From Hymenobacter profundi (lineage in GTDB: Bacteria > Bacteroidota > Bacteroidia > Cytophagales > Hymenobacteraceae), in NCBI RefSeq assembly GCF_019334315.1, contig NZ_JAHWGL010000013.1:1-64000 (forward strand): 64,000 bases of DNA, written 5' to 3'. Within the stretch, counting starts at the first letter, position 1. The number at the start of each line of letters is the position of its first letter. Shown piece after piece: positions 8,726-34,504 of the stretch. The notes under the pieces are model-generated. The model worked only from the letters and a program-made list of their open reading frames with translations, did not search any database and was not told where the DNA came from. The position numbers and the translations under genes were made by a program.

Positions 8726-11245
8726 ATGAAACGCTTCTTCTACTTACCGACCTTTTTGCGTTGCCAAGCAGTAGTATTTCTACTAGCATGGTTGAGTTGT
8801 GCCACAGCACTTGCCCAAAGTCCCATTACGCGAGTTATCTACACTAAAGCGGGCACGGCAAAGGTAATGAAAGGCAGCGCTACTGTTACGGCGCAGGTTA
8901 AGGTGCTAGGGGCTAGTCTTAACACTCGAACAACTACCCTATCTTTTGGAAACGTTGTGAATGGCGAAGCTGCAGCTGATGAAGGCACAACGTCCTTCGA
9001 TAGCTACACTCTACTTACCAACAACTTAACTCAAACAACAATAGCCGCCGCTTTAAATATTAGTGTGTTGTCGCTAGCGGAAGCACAAATTACAGGGCAG
9101 TCGACGCCTACCTCGGTGCGCGTGGATATGGCTGCGACCGTTAAAAAAGGCAATCGGGCGGGCATCGTGATAAGTGGTGACAACTCACTGCTGAATGTGT
9201 CGCTGCTGAACGCTGTGTACGTGCAAACGTACCTGAACGAAACGCCCGTGCAGCGTATTCCGGTTGCAGAGCTGGTAGGGGTTGAGTCGAGCCTGACCAG
9301 CTCGCTGCGCAACAACTTACCCTTGTTTAACAACCGCCCTACCCGCGCCGGCTTTATTGCCAGCGGCGACTTCAACAAAATAGAGCTGGTAACAGCAGGG
9401 GTGCTGAATCTGAGCTACGGCATACGCTTCTACTACGCCTTTGGCTTCGACGACCAAAATTCAACGATACAATACAAAGGCGCGCTGTCGAACAATGTTA
9501 GCCCGGTGGAGGGCCAGGAGTACAGCACCCAATCCCGTGGAGCCAACGGGCTGGTATGTGTGAATGTGAATTCGAACATCGACAACTCGCAGAACGCCGC
9601 CAATGACGATCTGGCTGACTTTGCCACGTTCCGGAACCTGCTGAATATAAGCGTGCTGAACTGCCCGGCTACCCTGCGCGTGAAGCTGCGCAGCACAGGA
9701 GGCCCTACCGGGTATCGTGCCGGATTTGTGATCGGCAACGGTGGCCTGCTTGACCTAAACCTGTTGCAGAACGTGCGCCTGAGCACCTACCTAAATGATG
9801 CACTACAGGAAAGCGCTTCCGGAGCTAACTTGCTGCGGGTGAATGTGCTGCCCGACAACCGCTATTTCCTGAGCTTCCAGACGACGAAGCCATTCAACCA
9901 GGTACAGATCAGCCTGAATGGGGCAGTAAACGTGCTGGACAACCTGAACGTGTACTATGGCTTTGGCATTGAAGAAGCAGCCTTCAGTGACCCAGACCCA
10001 GTCTTTTCTGACTTTGAAGATCCTACCGATAAATTCCAAGTGGCTACCCTCACACCGAATGCCAGTGGTTTGCTGACAGTTAGTGCCTGTGCTTCTGTTA
10101 TCGGCAGTAGCTGCGCAGGGTTTCAGGACCCAAGCTTTGCTGCCAAGCGCAACCTAACTACCACTTATGCTCAGATCAAGGGCTCATTGGTGAATTTAAA
10201 TGTGAATCAGGGCCTGGCATTGGCCGTGAAGCTTAACGGTGCCAACAAAGTGGCAAGCGGGAAAGCAGGTAAAGCAGGCAACCGCACCGGATTTGTCTTC
10301 GACTACACCGACAACGGAGGACTAGTAGGGGGCCTGTTGAGCGCGGGTGTCTTATCCAATTTCACCATCACGACCTATCGCGAAGGCCAAACCACTGCTG
10401 GTAAAGGTAATAATACCAGCGCGGTGCCTTCGCTGATAGCAGTGGAGAGCGTGTCGGGAGCCAACCTTGCGCAGGCAACAATCCTAGGCGGCAGCACGGG
10501 TCGGCAAGCCCTGTCTTTCGTAGCCACGCAGGATTTTGATTGGGTAGAGCTAACTACTACCAACACGGTAGGCACTGTGCAGGATACGCGCATCTATTAC
10601 GCTTTTGCCGAGGAGCTGCGGGGCTTCTTCCCTGAAAACCTCGTGAATCCTACCAACCCGCTACCCGTCGAGATGACAGCCTTCACGGTGCGCGCCACAA
10701 ATCAGGGAGGCGAACTGCGCTGGAAAACGGCTTCGGAGCAAAATAATAGCCTGTTTGTCGTGGAACGAGCCGTGCAGCAAGGCGCCGATGCCGTTTTTCA
10801 AGCTATTGGTCAGGTAGCTGGCGCAGGCACCACAACCACCGCCCAACAGTACCGCTACCTAGATGCAACGGCTGCCGAGCAGAGCACCGGCACGGTATAC
10901 TACCGCTTGCGACAGGTAGACACCAATGGTAACGAGTCGTTTTCGCCGGTAGTAGCGGCCACATTTGAAGAGCAAACACTGGCTGTATCGCTTCAGCTGG
11001 CCCCCAACCCCGCCGGAGCAGCCGAGATGATGCGTGTGCTGGTAGGATCTGTAAAAGAAGGTACCGTGGGGCAGCAACTGGTAGTGTATGACGCGCAAGG
11101 CCGACAGGTGAATGCTATGGCCGTAACAGACCGTGCTACCCTGCTCCCAACTCAGAACCTGGGCCAGGGCCTCTACCACGTGGTGCTACTGAACGCCGCC
11201 GGCAAGCGCCTCACCAGCCAGCGTCTGATTATTGCAGGACGTTAA
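8726..11245 (+). CDS. Large secreted repeat protein with T9SS type A sorting domain
   Basis: 839 residues. A signal peptide covers about residues 1-31 (ending ATALAQS). Three diverged copies of a module of roughly 100 residues begin near residues 142, 330 and 518. Each opens with a [NY]R[AT]GxV signature and closes with a YY[AG]F[GA] signature near 235, 410 and 624. After NPLPVEMTAF at about residue 648 comes a fibronectin-like segment common in cell-surface proteins of this group. The end (about 755-839) is a T9SS type A sorting domain: LAPNP, VYDAQGRQV, LGQGLYHVVLL and a basic tail. It is probably exported across the outer membrane and anchored at or released from the surface. No enzymatic motif is seen, so adhesion or matrix roles are guesses. 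Confidence 0.88.
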   Translation: MKRFFYLPTFLRCQAVVFLLAWLSCATALAQSPITRVIYTKAGTAKVMKGSATVTAQVKVLGASLNTRTTTLSFGNVVNGEAAADEGTTSFDSYTLLTNNLTQTTIAAALNISVLSLAEAQITGQSTPTSVRVDMAATVKKGNRAGIVISGDNSLLNVSLLNAVYVQTYLNETPVQRIPVAELVGVESSLTSSLRNNLPLFNNRPTRAGFIASGDFNKIELVTAGVLNLSYGIRFYYAFGFDDQNSTIQYKGALSNNVSPVEGQEYSTQSRGANGLVCVNVNSNIDNSQNAANDDLADFATFRNLLNISVLNCPATLRVKLRSTGGPTGYRAGFVIGNGGLLDLNLLQNVRLSTYLNDALQESASGANLLRVNVLPDNRYFLSFQTTKPFNQVQISLNGAVNVLDNLNVYYGFGIEEAAFSDPDPVFSDFEDPTDKFQVATLTPNASGLLTVSACASVIGSSCAGFQDPSFAAKRNLTTTYAQIKGSLVNLNVNQGLALAVKLNGANKVASGKAGKAGNRTGFVFDYTDNGGLVGGLLSAGVLSNFTITTYREGQTTAGKGNNTSAVPSLIAVESVSGANLAQATILGGSTGRQALSFVATQDFDWVELTTTNTVGTVQDTRIYYAFAEELRGFFPENLVNPTNPLPVEMTAFTVRATNQGGELRWKTASEQNNSLFVVERAVQQGADAVFQAIGQVAGAGTTTTAQQYRYLDATAAEQSTGTVYYRLRQVDTNGNESFSPVVAATFEEQTLAVSLQLAPNPAGAAEMMRVLVGSVKEGTVGQQLVVYDAQGRQVNAMAVTDRATLLPTQNLGQGLYHVVLLNAAGKRLTSQRLIIAGR

Positions 11246-29825: not shown

Positions 29826-29857
29826 TTTGGTTTTTAAAAAATGATTGCGCAGCTTTG
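29826..29857 (+). promoter_or_regulatory. Candidate promoter of the pheA leader/operon
   Basis: TTTG at 29826-29829 and CAGCTTTG at 29850-29857 with 20 nt between them match the Bacteroidota TTTG/TAnnTTTG promoter with one mismatch (C for T). Transcription would start near 29864, about 33 nt before the first leader peptide. Confidence 0.55.
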
Positions 29858-29896: not shown

Positions 29897-29959
29897 ATGC
29901 TTCTTACTTCGGCCTCGGCTTTTTTTAGCTTTTACTTTACCTACTACGAGCAATCGTAG
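29897..29959 (+). CDS. Leader peptide 1, Phe/Tyr-rich
   Basis: A 20-codon ORF reading MLLTSASAFFSFYFTYYEQS. Seven of residues 9-17 are aromatic (four Phe, three Tyr). It ends 41 nt before an intrinsic terminator and lies upstream of the phenylalanine/tyrosine biosynthesis operon. This is the layout of a ribosome-stalling attenuation leader in which scarcity of charged tRNA-Phe or tRNA-Tyr would pause translation. The same frame is open further upstream, but those codons precede the likely transcription start. Confidence 0.75.
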   Translation: MLLTSASAFFSFYFTYYEQS

Positions 29960-30030
29960 CAGCGAGGCCGCTTTGTAGGAACACTACTCCTGAATCACGC
30001 AAAAGCCTCCCACTCCGGAAGGCTTTTTTT
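29944..30030 (+). promoter_or_regulatory. Attenuator 1: pause hairpin, antiterminator and terminator
   Basis: The pause hairpin CTACGA-GCAA-TCGTAG (29944-29959) covers the last Tyr codons and stop, with a GNRA-type loop. The candidate antiterminator pairs GAGGC (29964-29968) with GCCTC (30005-30009), extended by TTTG (29972-29975) with CAAA (30000-30003). The terminator is AAAAGCCT (30001-30008) with AGGCTTTT (30020-30027) plus a T-run to 30030. The antiterminator uses the left arm of the terminator, so the two are mutually exclusive. Confidence 0.7.
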
Positions 30031-30041
30031 GTTTGTAACCC

Positions 30042-30125
30042 ATGCCCGTTAACGTGCCCGCTTTCGCCTATTACTTTTTTTACTTCTTCTACCCGAAGAA
30101 GCGGGCCCGCGTTTGCACTTGCTAA
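30042..30125 (+). CDS. Leader peptide 2, Phe/Tyr-rich
   Basis: A 27-codon ORF beginning MPVNVPAFAYYFFYFFYP and ending RVCTC. Nine of the ten residues 8-17 are aromatic (five Phe, four Tyr). It starts 12 nt after terminator 1 and ends 18 nt before the stem of terminator 2. The composition is far outside what chance gives in a GC-rich genome and matches the products of the downstream operon. It is inferred to be the second sensor in a tandem attenuation system. Confidence 0.82.
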   Translation: MPVNVPAFAYYFFYFFYPKKRARVCTC

Positions 30126-30171
30126 CCAGCGAAAGCATAACGAAGGGCCCTGCCAAGGAGGCCCTTTTTTT
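30060..30171 (+). promoter_or_regulatory. Attenuator 2: alternative hairpins ending in a terminator
   Basis: The pause hairpin CTTCTTC/GAAGAAG (30083-30089, 30095-30101) covers the last aromatic codons. The candidate antiterminator pairs GGGCCC (30103-30108) with GGGCCC (30145-30150). An 8-bp long-range helix GCTTTCGC (30060-30067) with GCGAAAGC (30129-30136) brackets the leader. The terminator is AAGGGCC (30143-30149) with GGCCCTT (30160-30166) and T-run to 30171, ending 20 nt before the pheA start. Confidence 0.75.
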
Positions 30172-30191: not shown

Positions 30192-31070
30192 ATGCACCCA
30201 ACTATTGCCATTCAGGGATTTGAAGGAAGCTTCCACCAAGTAGCAGCCCGGCGGCATTTTGGCCCCGACCACGCCATTGCCCCCTGCGCTACCTTTGGGC
30301 AGGTAGTGCGCCACGTGGCCGGCGGCACCACCCACTTCGGGCTGATGGCAATTGAAAACTCCTTGGCAGGCAGTATTTTACCCAACTACTCCTTGTTGCA
30401 ACGCCACCCAGTGCACGTGATTGGTGAAGTATACCTACACATCCGGCAGCACCTGATGGCCCTACCCGGCCAGCGCCTCGACGACCTGCACGAGGTACAC
30501 TCGCACCCCATGGCCCTGCTCCAGTGCGCCGACTACCTGGGTAGCCACGGCCACTGGCGCCTGGTAGAAACCGAGGATACGGCCCTAAGCGCCCAGCGCA
30601 TTCGGGAGCACCAGCGGCCGGGCATTGCTGCCGTGGCGGGAAGCCTGGCCGCCGAGCTGTTTGATCTGGAAATCGTGGCCGCTGATATCCACGCCGAGCC
30701 AGCTAATTACACCCGCTTTCTGGTATTAGAGCACGGTGCTCCGGTGCTCGAAGAGGTGGCGCCCGACGTCAACAAAGCGTCCTTGTATTTCCATACCAGC
30801 CACGCCCAAGGTAGCCTAGTGCAGGTGCTGCTGCCCATTGCCAGGCTGGGCATCAACCTATCCAAGTTGCAGTCCTACCCCCGTACGGGGCGCACCTGGC
30901 AATACGGCTTCCATGTAGATGTGGAGTTTGACACGCCGGCGCAACTGCTGGCCCTGCTGCACGAGCTGCGCCCCGTAACGGAGCACCTGGAGGTGCTGGG
31001 CGCCTACCGCCGCGACGTGCTGGAGGCCGTGCCAGCCCACGTGGTGAGCCCGGGAAACGTGCTTCAATAA
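30192..31070 (+). CDS. pheA: Prephenate dehydratase
   Basis: 292 residues. Converts prephenate to phenylpyruvate. The catalytic domain opens with IAIQGFEGSFHQVAARRHFG and contains MAIENSLAGSILPNY and the TRF motif in NYTRFLVLEHG. A C-terminal ACT domain (about 200-275; SLVQVLLPIARLGINLSKLQ then SYPRTGRTWQYGF) should bind Phe for feedback inhibition. There is no chorismate mutase domain; that activity is fused to the DAHP synthase three genes downstream. It is the first structural gene after the tandem leader region and lies 9 nt before the aminotransferase gene. Confidence 0.95.
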   Translation: MHPTIAIQGFEGSFHQVAARRHFGPDHAIAPCATFGQVVRHVAGGTTHFGLMAIENSLAGSILPNYSLLQRHPVHVIGEVYLHIRQHLMALPGQRLDDLHEVHSHPMALLQCADYLGSHGHWRLVETEDTALSAQRIREHQRPGIAAVAGSLAAELFDLEIVAADIHAEPANYTRFLVLEHGAPVLEEVAPDVNKASLYFHTSHAQGSLVQVLLPIARLGINLSKLQSYPRTGRTWQYGFHVDVEFDTPAQLLALLHELRPVTEHLEVLGAYRRDVLEAVPAHVVSPGNVLQ

Positions 31071-31079
31071 TCCTTTGTC

Positions 31080-32258
31080 ATGAACGATCAGCAGATACAG
31101 ATTACCACCGCCTCGCGCCTGGCTCATACGCAGGAGTACTACTTCTCCCGCAAGTTGCAGGAGATTGATGCCCTCAACAAAGCCGGCAAGCAGATCATCA
31201 ACCTGGGCATCGGCAGCCCCGACATGCCGCCGCCACCCAGTGTGGTAGATGCCCTAACTGCCGATGCGGCCCTACCCAATGCCCACGGTTACCAGTCGTA
31301 CAAAGGCCTGCCAGCACTACGCGAGGCCATGAGTGCGTGGTATGCCCGCGCCTATGGCGTAACGCTGGACCCGAACAGCGAAATTCTACCCCTACTGGGC
31401 TCGAAGGAAGGCATCATGCACATCAGCATGGCGTTTCTGGAAGCCGGCGACGAAGTGCTGCTGCCCAACCCCGGCTACCCTACCTACCGCGCCGCCGCCG
31501 AGCTAACCGGCGCTACCCTGCGCGAGTACGACCTGACCGCCGACACCGGCTGGCTGCCCAACCTGGCGGCCCTGGCCGCCACTGACCTTAGTCGCGTGAA
31601 GCTGATGTGGGTGAACTACCCGCACATGCCTACCGGCACCCGCGCCAGCGCCGCCGAGCTGCAAGCACTGGTTGATTTTGCGCTGGCCTACAACATTTTG
31701 CTGGTGCACGACAACCCGTACAGCTTCATTCTTAATGACAACCCAACCAGCTTGCTATCTGTGCCCGGCGCCCGTGGGTGCGTGCTGGAATTGAACTCCC
31801 TGAGCAAATCGCACAACATGGCGGGCTGGCGGGTAGGCATGCTGGCCGGCCGCGCCGATTTGCTACAGGACGTGCTGCGCTTCAAAAGCAACATGGACTC
31901 GGGCATGTTTCGGCCGGTGCAGCAGGCCGCCGTGGTAGCGCTGGGCTTGGGCGAAGAATGGTTTGCCGAACTGAACGCCCACTACCGCGCCCGGCGCGAA
32001 CGGGTGTTTGCCTTGCTCGACCTGCTGGGCTGCACCTACAGCCACGACCAGGTAGGCCTGTTTGTGTGGGCTGCCGTGCCCGCCGCCTACCCCGATGGCT
32101 TTGCCGTGAGCGACCGGGTGCTCTACGACGCCAACGTGTTCATCACTCCCGGCGGCATCTTCGGCAGCAACGGCAACGGCTACATCCGCATTAGCCTGTG
32201 CCAGAAGGTAGAGGTGTTGGATGAGGCGATTCGGCGGGTAGAGGCAGCTCTGCGCTGA
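31080..32258 (+). CDS. Class I/II PLP aminotransferase, probably aromatic amino acid
   Basis: 392 residues, fold type I. The PLP Schiff-base lysine is Lys243 in LNSLSKSHNMAGWRVG. Other family marks are INLGIGSPDMPPP, YQSYKGLPALREAM, WVNYPHMPTGTRA and VHDNPYSFIL. The C-terminal substrate Arg lies in NGYIRISLC. Its place between pheA and tyrA suggests transamination of phenylpyruvate and hydroxyphenylpyruvate. Sequence alone also allows LL-diaminopimelate- or aspartate-type activity, so no symbol is given. Confidence 0.9.
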   Translation: MNDQQIQITTASRLAHTQEYYFSRKLQEIDALNKAGKQIINLGIGSPDMPPPPSVVDALTADAALPNAHGYQSYKGLPALREAMSAWYARAYGVTLDPNSEILPLLGSKEGIMHISMAFLEAGDEVLLPNPGYPTYRAAAELTGATLREYDLTADTGWLPNLAALAATDLSRVKLMWVNYPHMPTGTRASAAELQALVDFALAYNILLVHDNPYSFILNDNPTSLLSVPGARGCVLELNSLSKSHNMAGWRVGMLAGRADLLQDVLRFKSNMDSGMFRPVQQAAVVALGLGEEWFAELNAHYRARRERVFALLDLLGCTYSHDQVGLFVWAAVPAAYPDGFAVSDRVLYDANVFITPGGIFGSNGNGYIRISLCQKVEVLDEAIRRVEAALR

Positions 32259-32423: not shown

Positions 32424-33266
32424 ATGATAGTCACGGTAGTAGGGGTAGGGCTAATTGGTGGGTCGCTGGTGCTGAGCATGAAGCAGCACGGCGTAGCCAC
32501 GCACGTCATTGGGGTAGACCACAACCCTACCCACCTGCGCGAAGCCGCCGCCCGTCACCTCATCGATGAGGGCAGCACCGACCTGCCCGCGGCCGTGCGC
32601 CGCGCCGACCTGATTATCCTGGCCGTGCCTATGGACGCGCTGCTTTCCGTGCTGCCTGCGGTGCTCGATCTGGCAGAAGATCAAGTGGTTATCGACGTGG
32701 GCTCTACCAAGAAAGCGCTGCTTGATGTGGTGCGCACGCACCCCAAACGTAGCCGTTTCGTGGCGGTACACCCCATGGCGGGCACCGAGTTTTCGGGGCC
32801 GGAGGCGGCGGTGCCGGAGCTGTTTCGCGACAAAACCCTGGTGCTCTGCGACGCCGAAGACAGCGCCGCCGACGCCGTGGCGCGGGTAGAGCAGGTAGCC
32901 GACGCCCTGGGTATGCGGCGCGTGTACCTGGGCGGCGCCGAGCACGACATGCACGTGGCCTACGTGTCGCACATCTCGCACATTACGTCGTTTGCGTTGG
33001 CTCTCACCGTGTTAGAGAAAGAACGCGACGAGCAGCGTATCTTTGAGCTGGCCAGTACGGGTTTTTCCTCCACGGTGCGTCTGGCCAAAAGCTCCTCGGC
33101 CATGTGGGTGCCCATCTTCCGCCAAAATCGTGAAAACGTGCTCGACGTGCTCGACGAACATTTGCGCCAGCTTCAACACATGCGCGACGTGCTGGCGCGG
33201 GAAGACTACCCGGCCTTCACCGACCTCATTCACCAAGCCAACCACATCAAACGCATTCTGAAATAA
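32424..33266 (+). CDS. tyrA: Prephenate dehydrogenase
   Basis: 280 residues. NAD(P)-dependent oxidative decarboxylation of prephenate to 4-hydroxyphenylpyruvate. The start at 32424 gives MIVTVVGVGLIGGSLVL, with the GxGxxG motif at the N-terminus as usual. Other signatures are IILAVPMDA, VVIDVGSTKKALLDV, VAVHPMAGTEFSGPEAA (conserved catalytic-region His) and YVSHISHITSFALAL. No ACT domain follows, so feedback control is not evident in the protein; the operon-level leader may supply Tyr control. Confidence 0.94.
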   Translation: MIVTVVGVGLIGGSLVLSMKQHGVATHVIGVDHNPTHLREAAARHLIDEGSTDLPAAVRRADLIILAVPMDALLSVLPAVLDLAEDQVVIDVGSTKKALLDVVRTHPKRSRFVAVHPMAGTEFSGPEAAVPELFRDKTLVLCDAEDSAADAVARVEQVADALGMRRVYLGGAEHDMHVAYVSHISHITSFALALTVLEKERDEQRIFELASTGFSSTVRLAKSSSAMWVPIFRQNRENVLDVLDEHLRQLQHMRDVLAREDYPAFTDLIHQANHIKRILK

Positions 33267-33409: not shown

Positions 33410-34504
33410 ATGAACACCTCTCTCGAAACCCAGACGCTGGGCGCGGCCGTAGCCGCCAAGAAACCACTGATTATCTCCGGGCCGTGCTCGGCTGAAACGG
33501 AGGAGCAACTGATTGCTACTTGCACGCAACTGGCCGCCACCGGCCAGGTAGACATGCTGCGCGCCGGCATCTGGAAGCCCCGCACCAAGCCCGGTTTGTT
33601 CGAAGGAATTGGTACCAAAGGTCTGCCTTGGCTGAAAAAAGCCCGCGAGTTGACCGGCCTACCTACTACCATTGAGGTAGCCACGGCTCGTCACGTAGAA
33701 GATGCTCTCACCTTCGATGTGGATGCCCTGTGGATTGGCGCTCGCACCACCGTAAACCCCTTCTCGGTGCAGGAAGTGGCCGACGCCCTGCGCGGCGTAG
33801 ACGTGCCCGTGTTCATCAAAAACCCCATCAACCCCGACCTGGAACTGTGGACGGGGGCCGTGGAGCGCATCGCAAAAGCCGGCGTGAAGCAGATTGGCCT
33901 GATTCACCGGGGCTTCGCGTCGTACGGTAACACGCAGTACCGCAACGCGCCCATGTGGCACTTGGCCATTGAGATGAAGCGCCGGATGCCGCACATGCAC
34001 ATGATCTGCGACCCGAGCCACATCTGCGGCAACCGCCACATGCTGGCCGAAGTGGCCCAAAAGTCCCTCGATCTGGACTACGACGGCCTGATTATCGAGT
34101 CGCACATCGACCCGGACAATGCCTGGAGTGATGCCAAGCAACAAGTGACGCCCGAACGCCTGGGCGAGCTGTTGGCAGGTCTGCACTGGCGCCGCGAAAC
34201 CACCGATAAGCAGGAGTTCCTGAGCGCTCTGGCCAAGCTGCGCGAGCAAATCAACCACATCGACGACGAGGTGTTGCAGCTGCTGGGCCAACGCATGCAG
34301 ATTGCCGAGCGCATTGGCGAGTACAAGCGCGACAACAACATCACCATCCTGCAAACGGCCCGCTGGAACGATATCCTGGACCGCGGCGTGCAGAAAGGTG
34401 CCAAGCTGGGCCTCACCGAAGATTTCATCCTGAAATACCTCGATGCCATTCACCTGGAGTCCATCAACCGCCAGAACAAGGTGATGAGCAAGAAGGCGGA
34501 GTAG
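33410..34504 (+). CDS. Bifunctional DAHP synthase / chorismate mutase
   Basis: 364 residues. The N-terminal domain (1-265) is a type I-beta DAHP synthase/KDPG-aldolase barrel: IISGPCSAETEEQL, RAGIWKPRTKPG, LWIGARTTVNPFSVQ, FIKNPINPDLELW, GLIHRGFASYG and ICDPSHICGNRH. The C-terminal 90 residues form an AroQ chorismate mutase: LAKLREQINHIDDEVLQLLG, RMQIAERIGEYKRDNNI, then ILDRG. It therefore covers the entry step of the shikimate pathway and the branch to prephenate, feeding both pheA and tyrA upstream. The mutase may act as the regulatory domain, as in similar fusions. Confidence 0.96.
   Translation: MNTSLETQTLGAAVAAKKPLIISGPCSAETEEQLIATCTQLAATGQVDMLRAGIWKPRTKPGLFEGIGTKGLPWLKKARELTGLPTTIEVATARHVEDALTFDVDALWIGARTTVNPFSVQEVADALRGVDVPVFIKNPINPDLELWTGAVERIAKAGVKQIGLIHRGFASYGNTQYRNAPMWHLAIEMKRRMPHMHMICDPSHICGNRHMLAEVAQKSLDLDYDGLIIESHIDPDNAWSDAKQQVTPERLGELLAGLHWRRETTDKQEFLSALAKLREQINHIDDEVLQLLGQRMQIAERIGEYKRDNNITILQTARWNDILDRGVQKGAKLGLTEDFILKYLDAIHLESINRQNKVMSKKAE

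Follow-up and report, generated by a model that had tools for sequence, protein, structure and literature searches.

Leader attenuation of pheA is a classical mode of control, and in the E. coli pheL-pheA attenuator an antiterminator and an intrinsic terminator are combined with regulatory codons for Phe only. The window analysed here, a 64,000-nucleotide stretch of Hymenobacter profundi DNA, carries two short Phe/Tyr-rich open reading frames (ORFs) in tandem within 300 bases 5' of pheA, and raises the question of why one operon should be preceded by two such leaders and how they would act on it. From the comparative sequence analysis described below, we consider it highly likely that the window operon is controlled by two ribosome-mediated transcription attenuators in series, each of mixed Phe/Tyr specificity.

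Results

Two leader units precede the pheA operon in the window

The initial annotation had claimed two Phe/Tyr-rich leader peptides, each with its own terminator, and the ORFs, hairpins and both terminators were indeed found in the window (Table 1). Aromatic residues account for seven of the nine at positions 9-17 of leader 1 and for nine of the ten at positions 8-17 of leader 2. Among the 1161 short ORFs of the window (10-45 codons, both strands), only three contain at least 7 F/Y/W per ten codons; two of them are the leaders, and the third is a minus-strand frame with a TTG start (10368-10481). Folding of the leader 1 region gave z = -3.9, which none of 200 shuffles equalled, and that of the leader 2 region z = -2.8, equalled by four of 200. 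The pause-type hairpin in which each leader had been said to end was confirmed for leader 1, where it overlaps the stop codon, but not for leader 2, the hairpin of which is internal (about codons 15-20). A mechanical terminator scan (loop limit 8) returned no plus-strand site at the leaders, only minus-strand mirror images, since the loops of terminators 1 and 2 exceed its limit. Scanning the window with the Rfam 15 models gave no match at gathering score, and no Rfam-described leader or T-box was matched.

The genes 3' of the leaders follow the order pheA-aminotransferase-tyrA-DAHPS/chorismate mutase, all in one direction, and the earlier claim that they make Phe and Tyr is borne out by their Pfam matches. 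Among the named loci searched, the aminotransferase has its closest named relatives in species of Hymenobacter. Upstream of leader 1 lies a promoter-like sequence, which we take to resemble the Bacteroidota-type consensus and which could, as a weak candidate, be the start signal for the leader RNA. The motif A[CT]CTTGC occurs at most 80 nt 5' of leader 1 in 51 of the 80 tandem operons of the family (see below), the differently spelled site of the window not being among these.

Table 1. Genes and predicted RNA elements of the leader region and operon in the window.
Feature	Coordinates	Strand	Basis
Promoter-like site before leader 1: TTG 29827-29829, CAGCTTTG 29850-29857	29827..29857	+	read from sequence
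Leader peptide 1, MLLTSASAFFSFYFTYYEQS, 20 codons	29897..29959	+	ORF read from sequence; unit-1 model R1 matches 29897-30030
Protector stem 1, strand 1 CGGCCTCG, partner 29963-29970 (CGAGGCCG)	29910..29917	+	MFE fold
Pause-type hairpin CTACGA-GCAA-TCGTAG overlapping leader 1 stop codon	29944..29959	+	fold; pairing in 71 relatives
Antiterminator 1, strand 1 GAGGC, partner 30005-30009 (GCCTC)	29964..29968	+	duplex test
Intrinsic terminator 1, AAAAGCCT...AGGCTTTT and T-run	about 30001..30030	+	-10.1 kcal/mol; covariation in relatives
Leader peptide 2, MPVNVPAFAYYFFYFFYPKKRARVCTC, 27 codons	30042..30125	+	ORF read from sequence
Protector 2, strand GCCCGC, partner 30101-30106 (GCGGGC)	30056..30061	+	MFE fold
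Leader 2 internal hairpin CTTCTTC-TACCC-GAAGAAG	30083..30101	+	pairing in 71 relatives
Antiterminator 2, strand GGGCCC, partner 30145-30150	30103..30108	+	duplex -15.1 kcal/mol
Intrinsic terminator 2, AAGGGCC...GGCCCTT and T-run	30143..30171	+	-13.9 kcal/mol; covariation in relatives
pheA, prephenate dehydratase	30192..31070	+	Pfam PF00800
Class I/II aminotransferase	31080..32258	+	Pfam PF00155
tyrA, prephenate dehydrogenase (ATG start assumed)	32424..33266	+	Pfam PF02153/PF20463; NCBIfam NF006307 above cut-off
DAHP synthase fused to chorismate mutase	33410..34504	+	Pfam PF00793 and PF01817

The leaders are conserved in the genus and family

Conservation in relatives, on which the proposal depended, was observed: Phe/Tyr-rich leaders precede pheA in all 138 family operons whose upstream DNA was read, as a tandem in 80 and singly in 58, with covarying stems, and a terminator (stem plus T-run) follows 216 of the 218 leader units. 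Of the 138 operons, 89 come from the genus, nine are additional loci (six in the genus, three in group g5) and 40 belong to other members of the family. In the first genus set, a PheA match was obtained in 91 of 101 genomes and the upstream DNA was read for 89, leaving out G004 (a pheA remnant) and G058 (split over contigs). Each of these 89 operons has at least one leader; 67 of them have two (a strict count gives 65, to which inspection added L005 and L020) and 22 have one. For the whole genus, the numbers are 95 operons, 73 tandem and 22 single. Elsewhere in the family, tandems were found in group g5 (L098, L100, L108, L140) and group g3 (L132, L133, L153), 43 of the 48 other-genus genomes with a match having been read (G118, G145, G147, G154 and G167 were left out).

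The threshold for accepting a leader was six aromatic residues per ten; L005 and L093, each of which has a leader that reaches just five, were added by hand, the third ORF of L020 (TTG start) was dropped, and L119 has a GTG start. The units for which no terminator was found are L088 unit 2, where the ORF is read through, and L145. The ribosome-position and duplex tests described below also leave out L129 and L077 unit 2, the terminators of which are doubtful, and L088 is left out of the Phe/Tyr counts.

In tandem leaders, 80% of the single-base codon differences at aromatic codons (5238/6540, pooled over sequence pairs that are not independent) either are synonymous or exchange Phe and Tyr, whereas only two of the nine possible changes are of this kind. 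A coding constraint on both leaders is supported, consistent with their putative translation. With a sequence model built for unit 1, matches were obtained to each of the eight in-genus singles tested (47-84 bits) but to none of 20 singles from other genera of the family; the unit-2 model gave weak matches to four of these 20 (17-19 bits) and also to three of the eight in-genus ones (14 bits). It might weakly be inferred that unit 2 is the older unit and was lost afterwards in some Hymenobacter.

When 102 genus genomes were searched with the unit-1 model, one strong match (E below 1e-11) was obtained in 96, that of the window lying at 29897-30030; the six genomes without a strong match are also without PheA and the aminotransferase. 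In six single-leader operons of the Hymenobacter group (L023, L024, L025, L040, L041, L043), the usual stop is lost and the ORF extends to a GTAG, which elsewhere stands after the leader stop and pairs with the leader.

Occurrence of the leaders in Bacteroidota

In other families of the order the leaders are patchy (about 10 of 40 operons). Across the phylum-wide sample, the aminotransferase was matched in 127 of 395 genomes; among the best 30 of these 127 loci, pheA stands directly 5' of the aminotransferase in 28, with a Phe/Tyr leader in 27 of the 28, and outside the window's family the best 30 include such a leader at 23 of 24 loci. Among the best 80 named loci, pheA precedes the aminotransferase in 57, of which 54 have at least one leader and one of the remaining is without upstream sequence. 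Tandem-looking arrangements were seen in 14 of these 57, namely six Hymenobacter, five Chitinophaga, Phaeodactylibacter xiamenensis, the Saprospiraceae genome L257 and the unplaced Bacteroidetes L280. The terminator test behind this count was crude, and by it the second unit of L249 has no terminator. Judged from these loci, single leaders are widespread in Bacteroidota, and putative tandems recur in Hymenobacter, Chitinophaga, Saprospiraceae-like genomes and a few others. Single leaders from Bacteroidota may already appear in the older comparative attenuation surveys of Vitreschak et al. 2004 and Lopatovskaya et al. 2010.

Trp codons were noticed within or beside the Phe/Tyr run in the pheA leaders of L249-L252, L254, L258, L261, L301, L303 and other named loci, mostly Chitinophagaceae, and the family tandems hold four Trp in 79 unit-2 leaders and none in 79 unit-1 leaders. 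Such Trp-containing leaders are possibly three-amino-acid sensors. No clear association was found between Trp codons and a DAHP synthase in cis (18 of 20 Trp-containing vs 30 of 34 other named leaders).

Covariation of the stems and fit of antiterminators to their terminators

Alignments were made of 71 of the 76 unit-1 and 71 of the 73 unit-2 sequences. The stem of terminator 1 is paired in 87.5% of cells and that of terminator 2 in 95.7%, each with 23 two-sided cells, and both stems beat every shuffle and slid version on two-sided cells and on covariation score. Pairing reaches 97.9% of cells in the leader 1 stop hairpin, the apical pair of which is CG in 57 relatives, AU in three, GC in three, UA in two and unpaired in six; the internal hairpin of leader 2 is 92.9% paired and has 23 two-sided cells, a number reached by none of 500 shuffles. 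Its two-sided changes fall on three distinct pairs, a count that 307 of 500 shuffles reach, the corresponding figures being 38 for terminator 1, 6 for terminator 2 and 249 for the leader 1 hairpin; counts of distinct pairs are less telling than counts of two-sided cells. The unit-1 protector stem is conserved with no covariation in the relatives, and the columns of the unit-2 antiterminator helix perform no better than slid versions.

For the unit-1 antiterminator, cognate and non-cognate duplexes were compared in place of column covariation, because subgroups shift by one base: the strand that follows the aromatic run varies between subgroups, and the terminator varies along with it. Cognate duplexes of unit 1 have -16.0 kcal/mol vs -10.7 kcal/mol with the terminators of other species; the values are -14.7 vs -13.1 kcal/mol for unit 2 and -14.5 vs -9.5 kcal/mol for single leaders. 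At most 10% of foreign terminators match the cognate duplex in 43 of 73 unit-1, 18 of 74 unit-2 and 32 of 54 single sequences, and within the same genome the antiterminator pairing is better with the own unit than with the other one in 75 of 78 cases for unit 1 and 66 of 78 for unit 2, all these counts coming from related species that are not independent. Antiterminators fit their own terminator better than those of other species. The antiterminator 1 duplex of the window itself has -9.2 kcal/mol vs the mean of -16.0 over 73 unit-1 sequences.

Predicted effect of ribosome position

In the co-transcriptional measure, a ribosome at the best stall position leaves the terminator 5' arm sequestered upstream (P above 0.5) in all 214 units, and a ribosome at the stop codon in only nine of 214. 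This threshold is weak by itself, since shuffled middle segments reach 0.53-0.55, vs a mean sequestration of 0.75-0.82 for the real ones; four of the 214 units score below their shuffles, and another test, with 20 shuffles per unit, shows 40 units to be equalled by at least 20% of them. Equilibrium folding, with the complete terminator present, predicts a mean terminator probability of 0.57-0.65 with the ribosome stalled vs 0.95-0.97 with it at the stop, a smaller contrast in which the terminator prevails on average even under stalling.

Unit 2 of the window switches clearly in the equilibrium prediction, P(terminator) being about 0 at most aromatic codons and 0.91 at the stop, and in the co-transcriptional measure 15% of shuffles do as well. 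Unit 1 of the window shows no switch at equilibrium (0.79 both stalled and at the stop); its co-transcriptional values are 0.67 vs 0.38, with 20% of shuffles doing as well, and predicted folding lends this particular unit weak support.

Leader codons follow the presence of pheA

Fourteen of 120 genus genomes have no PheA match at E 1e-20. Four of these (G031, G038, G049, G076) and one other genome of the family (G159) keep aminotransferase-tyrA-DAHP synthase without detectable pheA; PF00800 was searched in these five assemblies and not found, and it was matched in 14 of 14 control genomes. Their leaders still stand before the aminotransferase, as exemplified by MLQSRALLSYYYLYATA and MFSTPQVASYYAYYYFFPKKPARCCLS in G049. 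Also among the 14 is G004, which keeps the operon with pheA remnants (see below); the remaining nine have no aminotransferase match, two of them being only 81% complete. Six near-complete genus genomes (G007, G016, G027, G070, G074, G089) have neither PF00800 nor a strong unit-1 match, give no match to the aminotransferase at 1e-60 and are probably unable to make Phe.

Over both leaders, Phe/(Phe+Tyr) is 0.25-0.29 in the five pheA-less genomes vs 0.353-0.75 in 137 pheA-containing family operons. For the units taken one by one the separation is partial: the minimum among pheA-containing operons is 0.20 for unit 1, with only G049 and G076 below it, and 0.33 for unit 2, with only G038, G031 and G159 below it. 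Compared with the nearest pheA-containing sister, G049 and G076 each kept one of eight Phe codons (0/4 in leader 1) and G038 three of eight (2/4 in leader 1), leader 2 having kept 1/4 in each; of the Tyr codons, seven of nine were kept in every one of the three genomes (4/5 in leader 1, 3/4 in leader 2). In 11 ungapped relatives with pheA, the mean share of codons kept is 0.90 for Phe and 0.83 for Tyr.

Leaders with Tyr and zero Phe, e.g. MNNSANTYRTYYYYYAQ, precede eight named operons that lack pheA in cis, from Siphonobacter, Flectobacillus (two), Arcicella (two), Pseudarcicella, Aquirufa and a Cytophagales genome (L268, L269, L270, L275, L281, L289, L294, L318). L268 and L270, like L263, L315, L316 and L251, were counted from a downstream ATG, the longer L268 and L270 ORFs holding Phe before the run. 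In other named operons without nearby pheA no aromatic leader was seen, the upstream sequence being missing for some.

A rank test of the Phe fraction in 13 vs 191 operons gave p = 9e-10, uncorrected for relatedness. The aminotransferase tree requires pheA state to have changed five separate times, G004 being one of the cases, and G159 sits there on a long branch next to other long branches. One exception is L303, with pheA present and a Phe fraction of 0.22. In G004 (L230, about 600-900), pheA is left only as remnants while the leader and the rest of the operon are kept, and its sister G030 has pheA; since the G004 leader is still Phe-rich, we read this as a recent loss of pheA. Leader codon content is, across these genomes, coupled to the presence of pheA in the operon, and the claim of the initial annotation that both Phe and Tyr are sensed gains support from the lower Phe share of leaders where pheA was lost.

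Discussion

The comparisons above document, at the level of sequence, the anatomy of the two units, their conservation, the coding constraint, the pairing and the coupling of codons to pheA. In the mechanism that we propose, RNA polymerase would start just 5' of leader 1. With charged tRNA-Phe and tRNA-Tyr plentiful, the ribosome would reach the leader 1 stop and cover the antiterminator strand, and terminator 1 would form near 30030; with Phe or Tyr short, it would stall in the aromatic run, the antiterminator would capture the 5' arm of terminator 1 and the polymerase would read through. The same test would be repeated at leader 2, which has a hairpin, an antiterminator and, near 30171, a terminator of its own. 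As the two terminators stand in series, transcription would have to escape both, and only polymerases past both would reach pheA. Since Phe and Tyr codons replace one another freely in either leader, each leader should respond to a shortage of either, as 'Phe low OR Tyr low'. No promoter of the pattern TTG-N16-24-YANNTT(T)G was found between the leader 1 stop and the leader 2 start in any of the 80 tandem operons, and the median distance from the end of terminator 1 to the start of leader 2 is 24 bases. Given this, leader 2 is probably reached by readthrough only, and the two readthrough probabilities would then be expected to multiply.

Could the two leaders do something else? Two leaders before genes for two products might suggest a division of labour, one sensing Phe and the other Tyr in a two-input logic gate, and genomes do vary, unit 1 of L132 holding five Phe and two Tyr. 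However, Phe and Tyr are both present in 79 of 79 unit-1 and 79 of 79 unit-2 leaders counted, and both leaders lost Phe codons after the loss of pheA in the G038/G049/G076 clade, which makes such a gate quite improbable in our judgement. A strict split into one Phe leader and one Tyr leader was rejected on the mean Phe fractions of 0.49 (unit 1) and 0.55 (unit 2). Somewhat less improbable, yet still unlikely, is that only one unit regulates while the other has persisted by chance as the remnant of a duplication: 22 of the 95 genus operons are single and the eight of these tested all match the unit-1 model, terminator 1 of the window is weaker than terminator 2, and unit 1 is without an equilibrium switch. 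Across the genus, however, both units keep their frame, aromatic codons and covarying hairpins and terminators, and in one pheA-less clade the loss of Phe codons affected the two alike. We leave this reading the weight that it has because the leaders taken singly separate only partly and the window's unit 1 is weak.

The leaders might also act through pheA translation or Rho, as the mgtCBR leaders are described to work without intrinsic terminators in the account cited (PMC3641672). A stem and T-run after 216 of 218 units, and a distance of about 160 nt between terminator 1 and pheA, render this very improbable here. Finally, the coding constraint would also fit short ORFs that encode functional small aromatic peptides rather than sensors, but Phe and Tyr swap freely in them and their composition tracks the gene content of the operon, so that this possibility appears hardly credible. 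We retain two mixed Phe/Tyr attenuators in series as the preferred reading.

More tentatively, the tandem might check the same tRNA pools in two steps: two ribosomes, on leader 1 and then on leader 2, would both have to signal shortage, so that the response would be roughly squared and brief or mild dips would be filtered out; serial duplication might be a repeated route to steeper attenuation in Bacteroidota, and leader codons might be rewritten when a product is lost. Serial leader attenuators that share one specificity would offer a natural way to steepen a response with RNA and ribosomes only, and the gain from the second unit is directly measurable, since among related species some have a single unit, such as Hymenobacter polaris (L265), and others a tandem, such as H. 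siberiensis (L263). The lineages that lost pheA are a natural experiment, comprising several separate events, that ties leader codons to the products of the operon.

In the open-licence literature we found no description of tandem Phe/Tyr leaders or of leaders in series that share a single mixed specificity. Leader peptides in Hymenobacter were not found described there either, nor, on a topic not searched by name, was codon rewriting after pheA loss. The tandem, mixed Phe/Tyr leaders of the window differ from the E. coli pheL-pheA attenuator, with its one leader and Phe-only codons without Tyr. Common to both is a leader peptide 5' of pheA, which in E. coli is described to respond to charged tRNA-Phe (PMC11802643), a response that is predicted here. 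As summarised in the same source, citing Neshat et al. 2014, the aroR-aroF operon of Corynebacterium glutamicum likewise has a leader peptide with Phe-Tyr-Phe before an operon containing DAHP synthase; that leader is single, belongs to a different phylum and a different operon, and Tyr availability is reported there to be without effect (PMC11802643). For Flavobacterium psychrophilum, also a member of Bacteroidota, leader-peptide attenuation was proposed for amino acid operons, together with a conserved structured element 5' of pheA that has no Rfam match, the cited part of that work describing neither a tandem nor codon content (PMC9723704); the single leaders of our phylum-wide sample are probably of the same kind.

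Serial arrangements are on record for other signals. In Salmonella mgtCBR, the short ORFs mgtM and mgtP stand in series on one leader in an attenuation-like arrangement, and 80 of 138 family operons resemble it in this respect by sequence; according to the cited account, mgtCBR responds to ATP and proline, one signal per ORF, through structures unlike intrinsic terminators and with additive effects, and its authors call it a singular example (PMC3641672), whereas both leaders of the window type are mixed Phe/Tyr, judging from their codons, and are followed by intrinsic terminators. Two terminators in series on one leader are also known from the rimP leader of some Gammaproteobacteria (PMC2965389) and from the tandem of Bacillus clausii metE, which binds metabolites directly (PMC3641672), both described in these sources without amino-acid leader peptides. 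Two leader peptides before one gene are reported for ermB, where erythromycin is described to act by translational attenuation (PMC8274638) in place of the amino acid sensing predicted here. Set beside these systems, serial mixed Phe/Tyr leaders appear to extend classical attenuation with a new arrangement.
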